Below are positions 14,665-19,468 of a DNA stretch of 64,000 nt, in pieces; within the stretch, counting starts at the first letter, position 1; every line of letters begins with the position of its first letter. The stretch comes from Thermococcus sp. 2319x1. GTDB lineage: Archaea > Methanobacteriota_B > Thermococci > Thermococcales > Thermococcaceae. The notes under the pieces are model-generated. The model searched no databases and had not been told where the DNA came from. It was given only the letters and a program-made list of their open reading frames with translations. The position numbers and the translations under genes were made by a program. The stretch spans positions 304,321 to 368,320 of the forward strand of contig NZ_CP012200.1 of NCBI RefSeq assembly GCF_001484685.1, given 5' to 3'.

Positions 14665-15459
14665 ATGGTGAAAGAAAGAATGGTAGAACTTTTGCAAGAA
14701 CACTTTGAGCTGAATTTATACGAAGCCAGAGCATATGTTGCACTAGTTGGCTTCGGAGTTCTTACACCAGCAGAGCTTGCAAGTGTTTCCGAAGTACCAG
14801 CTCCAAGAACTTACGACGTTTTAAGGAGTTTGGAAAAGAAGGGGTTTGCATTAAGCCAGCCCGGAAAAGCCAACAAGTACAGACCAGTGCACCCAAAAAA
14901 CGTTCTTGAAAAGTTTATTGAGGACTGGCAGGTCAGAGTAAAAGAAGAGCTTGAGGCCAAGAAGAAGGCCAAGGAAGAGCTGTTAGAACTCATGACACCG
15001 CTAATAGAAACAGAGGTTCCTAAATACGGAGTAGAGAGAGTCTGGGTGGTCAGAGGTATTAAGAACTCCACTCTCAAGACTCAGGAAATGCTTGAAGAAG
15101 TTGAAAAGGAAATACTGCTGGCAGACAATGGTTACGTTGCAGTGAACCTCGATGAAGAAATAGCAAAAGCCGCCGATAGGGGAGTTAATGTAAAAATAAT
15201 AGTATCCAAACAAGTTCTCCCAAGAATTGAGACATCAAAGATAATGGACTACTACAAAGAAGGAAAGCTTGAGCTTAAAGTACTTGACAAAATAGAGCTC
15301 CCCATGCTAATCTGTGACGAGGAAGTGTTCTTTGCTTTGGAGGACTTGGCTGCTAGATACTTCAACTACGAAACCCAAGTGTGGATAAAGGACTTTAGAG
15401 TGGTTGAACTCTTTAAAGGAAAGTTCAATGAATATTGGGAAAAAGCAGAGAAAGCTTAA
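14665..15459 (+). CDS. trmBL2: TrmB-family chromatin protein TrmBL2
   Basis: The 264 residues and the sequence identify the TrmB-like 2 subfamily. In T. kodakarensis TrmBL2 is an abundant protein that coats DNA into thick filaments and represses genes broadly, rather than being a sugar-responsive repressor. An N-terminal winged helix (residues 5-75, with TPAELASVSEVPAPRTYDVL) is followed by a coiled-coil rich in Lys/Glu (about 90-115) and the C-terminal TrmB domain. The long sugar-binding extension of TrmB is absent. GAGGTGATGG precedes the ATG. The stop TAA shares TTAA (15456-15459) with the convergent small HTH gene. Confidence 0.88.
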   Translation: MVKERMVELLQEHFELNLYEARAYVALVGFGVLTPAELASVSEVPAPRTYDVLRSLEKKGFALSQPGKANKYRPVHPKNVLEKFIEDWQVRVKEELEAKKKAKEELLELMTPLIETEVPKYGVERVWVVRGIKNSTLKTQEMLEEVEKEILLADNGYVAVNLDEEIAKAADRGVNVKIIVSKQVLPRIETSKIMDYYKEGKLELKVLDKIELPMLICDEEVFFALEDLAARYFNYETQVWIKDFRVVELFKGKFNEYWEKAEKA

Positions 15460-16840: not shown

Positions 16841-18061
16841 ATGATCCTGCAGGTAGCTCTTGATTTAACTGATATCGAGCAGGCGATTTCTATAGCAGAG
16901 AAAGCCGCTCGTGGTGGAGCTCACTGGCTTGAAGTGGGGACTCCTTTGATAAAGAAGGAAGGCATGAGAGCAGTAGAGCTGATGAAAAGAAGATTCCCTG
17001 ATAGAAAAATCGTGGCGGATTTAAAAACAATGGATACTGGGGCACTTGAAGTTGAAATGGCAGCAAGACACGGTGCCGATGTTGTTTCAATACTTGGAGT
17101 TGCGGATGACAAGACGATAAAAGATGCAGTGATGGTTGCAAGAAAGTATGGAATAAAGGTGATGGCTGATTTAATCGGGGTTAAGGATAAGGTAGAAAGG
17201 GCTAAAGAACTTGAAAAAATGGGTGTGCACTACATTTTAGTTCACACGGGAATAGACGAGCAAGCTCAAGGGAAAAACCCTCTGGAAGATTTAGAAAAAG
17301 TTGTAAAGGCCGTAAAAGTTCCAGTTGCTGTTGCTGGAGGCTTAAATCTAGAGACAATTCCAAAGGTTATTGAGGCGGGAGCCACTATTATTATCGTTGG
17401 TGGGGCAATAACAAAGGCAAAGGACCCCGAAGAAGTCACTCGGAAAATACTTGATCTGTTCTGGGGAGAGTATATGGCTACCATAAAAAAAGCAATTAAA
17501 GACATTCTCGAACACATAAACATGGTTGCCGATTCCTTAAAGCTCGAGCAAGTTAGGGGAATGATAGATGCCATGATAGGTGCCAATAAAATCTTCATCT
17601 ACGGTGCCGGAAGGAGCGGTTTGGTTGGAAAGGCCTTTGCAATGCGCTTGATGCATCTTGACTTTGACGTCTACGTGGTTGGTGAAACGATCACCCCCGC
17701 TTTTGAGAGGGGAGATCTGCTAATCGCCATTAGCGGAAGTGGTGAAACAAGAACTATAGTGGATGCAGCTGAAATCGCAAAGAAGCAGGGAGGAAAAGTT
17801 GTTGCTATAACATCTTATAAAGACTCAACCCTTGGAAGACTTGCGGATGTCGTAGTAGAAATCCCGGGGAGGACAAAAACGGACATTCCAACGGATTATA
17901 TTGCAAGGCAAATGCTCACCGAATACAAGTGGATTGCCCCAATGGGAACGCTGTTTGAAGACTCAACGATGCTGTTTTTGGACGGTATTATAGCACTACT
18001 AATGGCGACATTCCAAAAAACCGAAAAAGACATGAAGAGAAAACATGCAACCTTAGAGTGA
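16841..18061 (+). CDS. hps-phi: Bifunctional 3-hexulose-6-phosphate synthase / 6-phospho-3-hexuloisomerase
   Basis: This fused enzyme interconverts ribulose 5-phosphate plus formaldehyde with fructose 6-phosphate. In Thermococcales, which lack the oxidative pentose phosphate route, it supplies ribulose 5-phosphate. Residues 1-210 form the HPS barrel related to OMP decarboxylase (VGTPLIKKEG, VADLKTMDTG, VAVAGGLN). Residues about 215-406 form a SIS-domain isomerase (FIYGAGRSGLVGKAFAMRL, AISGSGETRT). The 406 residues match the known fusion. GGGGGGT precedes ATG 16841. It heads a run of six genes with gaps of five bases or less. Confidence 0.97.
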   Translation: MILQVALDLTDIEQAISIAEKAARGGAHWLEVGTPLIKKEGMRAVELMKRRFPDRKIVADLKTMDTGALEVEMAARHGADVVSILGVADDKTIKDAVMVARKYGIKVMADLIGVKDKVERAKELEKMGVHYILVHTGIDEQAQGKNPLEDLEKVVKAVKVPVAVAGGLNLETIPKVIEAGATIIIVGGAITKAKDPEEVTRKILDLFWGEYMATIKKAIKDILEHINMVADSLKLEQVRGMIDAMIGANKIFIYGAGRSGLVGKAFAMRLMHLDFDVYVVGETITPAFERGDLLIAISGSGETRTIVDAAEIAKKQGGKVVAITSYKDSTLGRLADVVVEIPGRTKTDIPTDYIARQMLTEYKWIAPMGTLFEDSTMLFLDGIIALLMATFQKTEKDMKRKHATLE

Positions 18062-18066
18062 TACAC

Positions 18067-18822
18067 ATGGCTTCTTTTCCCCATATTTTTGTTGGGATTG
18101 GAAATAATGGAGGCAAAGTTGTTCAAAACATCGATATAGAAGGGGCTCCAAAGATCGTGATAAATCCGACATATTATCTACTTGGAAAAGCATCTTTTCG
18201 TCAAAAAATTAGGAATTTGTTCTGGAATGTCCCGGATGATGCAATTTTGTGGTTTATACTTGAAAATAAACCAACAAACATCGAAATCATGCAGGTTATT
18301 CTTGAATATGTACCAAGAAAACCCCTCAAGTTGGCTTATATCCTCACCCCTCAGAAGGAGCTTGTTAATGAAGAAAAGCCCCAATGGGCAGAGGACTTTG
18401 ATACAGTATTTTATGACTCATTGTGGGAATTCTTAGATGAATACACATCCTCTTCACTCGAGTCTGCATTTCAAATGGCTACAAAAAATATTGGGTTGAT
18501 GTTCACTAGGCTCCACTATTACTTGGAAAATCAAATGCTTGTGAATGTTGACTACGCCGATTTCTTTAATATGGTAGAAGGAAACAACATAGGCATACTC
18601 CGCCTTTTAAAGAAGGTTGATTTCGACTGGCACTGGGGGATATGGGATAGAGGCCTGGTAAACATTTTAGTGGGTGAGAAAGTCCCGCTGAGTTATGCCC
18701 ATAAAATACTCCATACGTTTCAAGGTCTCTTAAAAGAGAAAGACATAATATGGGGGATAAAAATGGAGGAGGGTTTGGAGGAGCAGGTGGAAATCCTCTC
18801 ACTTCTAGTTAAGAGGTGGTAA
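18067..18822 (+). CDS. Degenerate FtsZ/tubulin-superfamily-like protein, function unknown
   Basis: A 251-residue protein I do not recognise as a named family. Read against FtsZ, several blocks line up in the right order: FVGIGNNGGKVVQNI (8-22) with the FtsZ T1 glycine loop, AYILTP (90-95) with the strand before the core helix, LVNVDYADFF (158-167) with the T7 loop NVDFADV, LVNILVGEKVPLSYAH (197-212) with the C-domain strand and helix, and IIWGIKMEE (227-235) with the penultimate strand. The tubulin signature GGGTGTG is missing; the matching region reads ILWFILENKPTN. GAGTGAT before ATG 18067 sets the start, five bases after hps-phi. Homology is inferred by eye and needs structure-based checking. 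Confidence 0.6.
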   Translation: MASFPHIFVGIGNNGGKVVQNIDIEGAPKIVINPTYYLLGKASFRQKIRNLFWNVPDDAILWFILENKPTNIEIMQVILEYVPRKPLKLAYILTPQKELVNEEKPQWAEDFDTVFYDSLWEFLDEYTSSSLESAFQMATKNIGLMFTRLHYYLENQMLVNVDYADFFNMVEGNNIGILRLLKKVDFDWHWGIWDRGLVNILVGEKVPLSYAHKILHTFQGLLKEKDIIWGIKMEEGLEEQVEILSLLVKRW

Positions 18823-18823
18823 A

Positions 18824-19468
18824 ATGGATGCAATATTCTTTGACATCGATGAAACCCTCTTAAGTGAAAGAGCACTTGTGATGCTCTTTCTTCCCCAAGT
18901 TTATGAGAGGCTCTCAAAGAAGCTGGGAATCTCAAGAGGGGATGCAAGATTAAAATTCCTTAGAGAGCTCTCTGAGAAAAGGGATAAATATGAATGGCAC
19001 GACTGGAACTTCTTTTTCGAGAGCTTCGGGTTGGATTTTAAATACGAGGACCTCTTGAAGGCATATCCCCACAAGATCCGCGTTTTTCCTGATGTGAAGC
19101 CGACTCTGGAATGGCTAAAAGAGGAGGGATATAGGCTCGGTGTAATAACAAGTGGTCCAGAATATCAGAAGCTAAAACTAAGGATAGCAAGGCTTGATAA
19201 GTACTTTGATGTGATTGTTACTAGGGAAGATGTAAAAACTGTAAAGCCTGACCCTAAAATATTTTTATATGCCTGCGAAAAATTAAATGTAGAGCCTGAA
19301 AATGCCATGATGATTGGGGACAATCTGCACCAAGATGTCTATGGAGCAAAAAATGTTGGAATGCTTGCAGTATGGATCAATAGGGAGGGGTTGGAGGATT
19401 ATAACTTTGCAGACTTTGAAATTAGGAGCCTTCACCAGTTGAGAAAAATCTTGGGGGGTTTAGGATGA
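18824..19468 (+). CDS. HAD superfamily hydrolase
   Basis: A phosphatase-type HAD protein of 214 residues. Motif I is FFDIDETLL (Asp nucleophile and acid/base Asp), motif II VITSG near residue 108, motif III lysine in VKPDPKIFLYA, and motif IV MMIGDNLHQDVYGA. A helical cap lies between residues 15 and 85. Substrate unknown. GAGGTGG precedes ATG 18824, one base after the FtsZ-like gene's stop, so they are in one operon. The stop overlaps the next small gene as ATGA. Confidence 0.85.
   Translation: MDAIFFDIDETLLSERALVMLFLPQVYERLSKKLGISRGDARLKFLRELSEKRDKYEWHDWNFFFESFGLDFKYEDLLKAYPHKIRVFPDVKPTLEWLKEEGYRLGVITSGPEYQKLKLRIARLDKYFDVIVTREDVKTVKPDPKIFLYACEKLNVEPENAMMIGDNLHQDVYGAKNVGMLAVWINREGLEDYNFADFEIRSLHQLRKILGGLG

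Follow-up and report, generated by a model that had tools for sequence, protein, structure and literature searches.

An FtsZ paralog of the Thermococcaceae that retains the T7 loop without the GTP-binding site and is encoded beside hps-phi

FtsZ hydrolyses GTP only at a site common to two subunits, half of it on each. The locus described here raises the question of what role remains for a protein of this family that carries one half-site and has discarded the other. The window, a stretch of 64,000 nt from the 1.96-Mb, single-contig genome of Thermococcus sp. 2319x1, encodes an FtsZ-like protein of 251 aa, labelled Zl here. A reading made from the sequence alone had reported VGIGNNGGKVV (residues 9-19), LVNVDYADFF (158-167), LVNILVGEKVPLS and IIWGIKMEE in FtsZ order, and translation of the reading frame confirms these elements. 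No published description of Zl was found by locus tag or keyword in open-access text, and the protein is undescribed to the extent of that literature. As a GTP-site-less, T7-keeping FtsZ paralog it is near-universal in one archaeal family, where it is bound to the following sugar-phosphate genes.

16841..18061, + strand: hps-phi, a fusion of 3-hexulose-6-phosphate synthase and 6-phospho-3-hexuloisomerase, matching NCBIfam NF041755 with 553 bits (cut-off 500)
18067..18822, + strand: Zl coding sequence, 251 aa, single copy, defined by the ORF translation, orthologs, dN/dS and predicted fold
18824..19468, + strand: HAD-family phosphatase TIGR02253, directly 3' of the Zl stop, 181.5 bits against a cut-off of 169.75

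Gene order and conservation of the locus

The hps-phi stop codon ends at 18061, placing the Zl ATG five bases beyond it as first read; an alternative GTG start at 18058 would extend the product to 254 aa. A GAGTGAT that resembles a Shine-Dalgarno sequence overlaps the stop of hps-phi, and AGAGGTGGT precedes the start of the HAD gene; read from the sequence, hps-phi, Zl and the HAD gene thus look like one translationally coupled operon. At all 76 intact loci hps-phi is located immediately 5' and the HAD gene immediately 3' of Zl, adjacent or overlapping. The arginase-like and D-glutamate-cyclase genes flanking the three are not universal neighbours, and the outer genes vary on both sides. The suggested link between Zl and metabolism comes from this gene order. 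A TrmB-family sugar-responsive regulator is encoded ~1.4 kb 5' of hps-phi (window 14665-15459, + strand), separated from it by a divergently oriented arginase-like gene. The 662-codon frame joining HPS-PHI and Zl in one draft genome (G007, L002:1501-3486, - strand) was rejected as a gene fusion: it is produced by a single extra A in an A run, either a sequencing error or a true frameshift, and is not counted as evidence of fusion.

Orthologs of Zl were identified in 37 of 37 Thermococcaceae genomes in the first search and in 89 of 94 in the widest. The five remaining genomes are all drafts in which the hps-phi locus is missing or cut at a contig end and therefore provide no evidence of loss; Zl is kept by every Thermococcaceae genome in which the locus is assembled. 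No ortholog was found at E<=1e-9 in 21 further genomes from the same group, nor outside the Thermococci in a species-level genome collection scanned with two peptide patterns, a scan that remote relatives can escape. Viral spread was likewise set aside, with no match among viral contigs, and a 329-aa match in one genome (G037, E 7.8e-9) carries GGGTGSG and is an ordinary FtsZ (L046). The dN/dS ratio between close pairs is 0.02-0.22, indicating strong purifying selection, and 48 residues are invariant among 76 distinct orthologs; the Zl reading frame is a real gene. In one genome a second, frameshifted copy without hps-phi on its 5' side (L068, G092:C2:360947-361698) adjoins HAD and D-glutamate-cyclase genes and represents a decayed duplicate of the locus.

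Homology with FtsZ and probable origin

The single Zl sequence resembles FtsZ only faintly, matching TIGR00065 at E 0.026 (13.8 bits, below the curated cut-off of 295.2 bits) and FtsZ in the PDB at E 0.2. When TIGR00065 was compared with 37 orthologs the best E was 2.3e-6, with 36 of the 37 matching at E<=1, and profiles of the orthologs retrieved M. jannaschii FtsZ from the PDB at 1.1e-6 (37 sequences) and 1.1e-7 (74 sequences). This match is made up of two collinear blocks, H7-T7-H8 and S8-H10-S9, and sets NVDYAD on NVDFAD. An identity with DUF257 (E 0.12) was dismissed as chance, one member alone matching.

AlphaFold2 models built from ortholog-only alignments reached a pLDDT of 86.0 and a pTM of 0.87 for the Zl of this genome; a Pyrococcus-type ortholog that shares about 51% identity with it reached 88.8 and 0.88. 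The models exhibit an N-terminal Rossmann-like domain, a long central helix H7, T7 and an alpha/beta second domain, in the element order of FtsZ minus S3, T3 and H9. In Foldseek searches the best 50 PDB matches of both models were all FtsZ (best E 2.7e-13 and 1.8e-12), with TM-scores of about 0.62-0.74 by query length and an rmsd of 5-7 A over the whole chain. The two-domain FtsZ topology had been named beforehand as a test of the sequence-only reading, and the predicted fold displays it. Taken with the profile matches, the predicted fold and its Foldseek matches settle, as far as computation can, that Zl is a true FtsZ/tubulin homolog. The Pfam Tubulin family PF00091, which was the query used to gather the tubulin superfamily in PMC9871819, matched 0 of 37 Zl orthologs at E<=1, so censuses of archaeal tubulin-family proteins built on the GTP domain miss members such as Zl.

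Among the FtsZ families, archaeal FtsZ2 is both the best profile match and the tree partner of Zl. In hhalign comparisons Zl matched FtsZ2 with E 8e-13 over residues 110-245 and FtsZ1 with 4e-8, and the CetZ comparison was not significant (probability 1%, E 0.05). The Zl family falls on the FtsZ2 side of the tree with bootstrap/SH-aLRT support of 100/99.9, and sisterhood to FtsZ1 is marginally rejected (p-AU 0.04). The simplest reading is that Zl is a Thermococcaceae-only FtsZ2 duplicate that arose at the base of the family, an origin that is provisional because the Zl branch measures 5.9 changes per site. Zl and the FtsZ2 of its own genome (L044, G000:C1:1173925) share the fold, the T7 motif NxDxAD and the S9 motif IxWG. 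FtsZ2 is about 420 aa long, whereas Zl, at 251 aa, lacks T3, the G-box, the H5 arginine, H9 and the C-terminal tail. Zl also bears an FxWxWGxW loop of its own and carries FYDS in place of the T6 N-D-[KR]-L.

Other divergent members of the superfamily also differ from Zl. CetZ is, like Zl, an extra FtsZ/tubulin paralog in the same genomes (L045), but it keeps GGGTGAG, has QTLDASD at T7 and is encoded at another locus. PMC9856176 describes Thermococcales CetZ as pili-associated and present once per species, and mentions an extra divergent protein in two strains; that protein cannot be Zl, which is near-universal. Makarova and Koonin (2010, PMC2875224) described FtsZl1 and FtsZl2, which are divergent FtsZ-tubulin families as well and lie outside the core division set. 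They were found by, and keep, the GTP-binding GGGTG(S/T)G loop and have a long C-terminal extension, and in FtsZl1 T6-H7 and beyond are not identifiable (PMC2875224). Zl is their mirror image, with the G-box lost and T7 and the C-terminal domain kept in 251 aa.

Kept and lost halves of the GTP site

The side of Zl corresponding to the T7 face of FtsZ carries two conserved motifs.

18535..18561, + strand: T7 synergy-loop equivalent, M157-L-V-N160-V-D162-Y-A164-D165, with M157, N160, D162, A164 and D165 invariant in 76/76
18739..18756, + strand: strand S9 motif, K225-D-I-I-W-G230, with K225, D226, I228, W229 and G230 invariant, aligned to IIWG of M. jannaschii FtsZ

HMMER, hhalign and unanchored MAFFT all placed NVDYAD on the FtsZ T7 loop. 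The expectation that residues 158-167 would be conserved, with N160, D162 and D165 invariant, was borne out in all 76 orthologs, these residues being among the most conserved of the family, and residues 157-165 form its second-best distinct conserved block. Very fast divergence from FtsZ and the frameshifted second copy in one genome are what a decaying, functionless paralog might leave behind, and a chance resemblance might also be supposed. Both ideas carry next to no weight and are refuted by purifying selection and conservation: the low dN/dS, the 48 invariant residues and the presence of Zl wherever the locus is assembled argue against decay, as do FtsZ matches at E 1e-6 to 1e-12. The resemblance exceeds chance on the evidence of orthologs throughout the Thermococcaceae under purifying selection, invariant N160, D162, A164 and D165, PDB FtsZ profile matches and the unanchored alignment.

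T7 links the central helix to the second domain, and its conservation in Zl could be structural. The NxDxAD motif is not needed for the fold, however, since the CetZ of the same genomes has QTLDASD. The loop is the least confident region of the Zl models, with residues 154-156 below 50, and its conformation is therefore not predicted. In Staphylococcus aureus FtsZ, the T7 residues N208, D210 and D213 position the catalytic water on the GTP of the next subunit and a change at any of them blocks assembly; T7, H8, S9 and H10 are the contact elements of the T7 side, and D46, Q48, G72 and R143 come from the GTP-bearing subunit (PMC8936486). At the level of aligned residues Zl keeps the T7-side set and is without the GTP-side set, and this is its core asymmetry. 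The elements of the GTP-side, or upper, face and the loop that replaces H9 are as follows.

18094..18111, + strand: T1-like glycine loop, G10-I-G12-N-N-G15, with G10 and G12 in 76/76 and G15 in 75/76
18262..18279, + strand: T4 place, residues 66-71, reading ENKPTN where FtsZ has the G-box GGGTG(T/S)G, an 8-column deletion against FtsZ2, with N71 invariant
18409..18423, + strand: T6-equivalent, F115-Y116-D117-S118-L119, with F115, Y116, D117 and S118 invariant in 76/76
18622..18645, + strand: family-specific F-x-W-x-W-G-x-W loop between S7 and S8, at the place of FtsZ H9, with W188, W190, G191 and W193 invariant

The G-box had been described as replaced by another sequence. Its loss is upheld by joint alignment with FtsZ2, but a plain substitution is not, since about 8 residues are missing between strand S4 (ILWFILE) and helix H4, where all orthologs have an ENKPTN-like sequence. 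The deleted columns in this alignment amount to 27 in T3, 8 in the G-box, 7 in a part of T5/H5 that takes in the catalytic-arginine region, and 16 in H9. The Asp and Gln of T2 are replaced, and invariant Y116 occupies the position of the base-contacting Asn of T6. The claimed loss of the GTP-binding signature is thus correct and reaches T2, T3, T5/H5 and T6, and the upper face of Zl can most likely neither bind nor hydrolyse GTP. Retention of the T1 GxGxxG is compatible with unconventional GTP binding and polymerisation of Zl alone, but this is very improbable given that T3, the T4 G-box, the H5 Arg and the T6 Asn are absent in all orthologs and that PF00091 recognises none of the members searched.

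The upper face is itself well conserved, with F8, G10, G12, W62, N71, P95, E98, P105, W107 and F115-Y116-D117-S118 invariant. The most conserved 9-residue window of the protein is 111-119, the T6-like FETVFYDS block outranking T7, suggesting that a second conserved function resides on this face; the old nucleotide pocket has probably been rebuilt for another ligand or partner. These observations also bear on an alternative in which Zl uses an FtsZ scaffold for a metabolic or sensor role and no longer contacts FtsZ, its T7 being kept for the fold or a homodimer and its upper pocket binding a sugar phosphate, a nucleotide sugar, HPS-PHI or the HAD phosphatase. Strong conservation of F8, G10, G12, W62, N71, E98, W107 and FYDS 115-118 favours it, as does a gene order that stays fixed while the outer neighbours vary, yet gene order alone is weak evidence for contact, and two things are left unexplained: the invariance of precisely those T7 residues (N, D, A and D) that act on the GTP of a neighbouring subunit, and the retention of the S9 IIWG. 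We regard this alternative, in both its parts, as unlikely but worth serious consideration.

A one-sided FtsZ subunit

Zl probably serves to regulate the division filament from within the FtsZ family. The specific proposal, which we judge to stand at even chances, is that it acts as a one-sided FtsZ subunit and negative regulator that uses T7 to dock on FtsZ at its GTP face. Zl retains the fold of FtsZ together with the lower (T7) face for polymerisation, and with T7, H8, S9 and H10 it would dock where a genuine FtsZ, most likely FtsZ2, bears its GTP; H10, S9, H8 and T7 are the parts that hhalign finds common to Zl and FtsZ2. N160, D162 and D165 would be supplied to the GTP of the docked FtsZ and may trigger its hydrolysis, while the upper face of Zl would accept no further canonical subunit. 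PMC8936486 proposes a polarity in which FtsZ monomers join the filament by the GTP face, and Zl would therefore occupy the growth face of a monomer or cover an exposed end. In this way it would sequester GTP-FtsZ monomers or cap the filament end that exposes nucleotide, and either effect would regulate the Z-ring negatively. Through co-translation with HPS-PHI the dose of Zl would follow the supply of pentose phosphate, and a regulatory input would enter by the remodelled upper pocket. The docking, its consequence and sign, and the metabolic input are what we infer here. A fuller version, in which Zl is a trans-acting GTPase-activating half-site and FtsZ2 end-cap whose dead pocket senses a sugar phosphate linked to the reverse ribulose-monophosphate pathway, or a partner, such that pentose supply controls division, is doubtful.

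Zl ends at S10, with W251 or at most about 15 residues beyond, and has no C-terminal linker or SepF-binding tail. Archaeal FtsZs bind SepF by this tail (PMC8178401), and its absence is more in keeping with a soluble regulator than with a component of the ring. The same one-sided geometry would allow nucleation, and near-universal presence across the Thermococcaceae fits a standing role, so that Zl may be imagined as a positive or neutral co-assembly partner that nucleates, stabilises or anchors one end of an FtsZ filament, as gamma-tubulin does with microtubules. Against this, Zl is without a membrane or SepF tail, and T7 set against the nucleotide face should favour GTP hydrolysis and, with it, turnover; we consider such a partner improbable.

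Negative regulation by a one-sided subunit would have parallels elsewhere. The ARC3 protein of chloroplasts has an FtsZ-like domain, and SulA is a bacterial FtsZ inhibitor that blocks a longitudinal FtsZ face. MciZ blocks a longitudinal face as well, by capping or sequestration (PMC8936486), as is proposed for Zl, but neither MciZ nor SulA is an FtsZ homolog and both attach to the T7-side face, while the expected target of Zl is the GTP side. ARC3 inhibits Z-ring assembly (PMC13335998); it is likened to Zl by description, not by sequence, and differs as a plastid protein of another lineage with added domains. OpgH and UgtP are metabolic antagonists that tie sugar metabolism to FtsZ assembly (PMC3723540), a link that for Zl is suggested by operon gene order only, and unlike Zl they are glycosyltransferases unrelated to FtsZ. 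If the proposal is true, Zl is an archaeal FtsZ regulator made from FtsZ itself. A long-conserved natural protein with one half-site, the other discarded, also offers a tool to dissect FtsZ GTP hydrolysis, and the genetic tractability of Thermococcus kodakarensis makes this reading of Zl directly testable.

The FtsZ set of the Thermococcaceae is unusual in more than one member. In most genera the FtsZ2 G-box reads GMGNGTGTG, with Asn for Gly (L044, L047, L104-L108), and two genera (L102, L103) retain GMGGGTGTG. The FtsZ1 T7 loop of two genera (g2 and g3; L089, L091, L092, L093) is NLDFND, with Asn replacing the usual Ala of NLDFAD.
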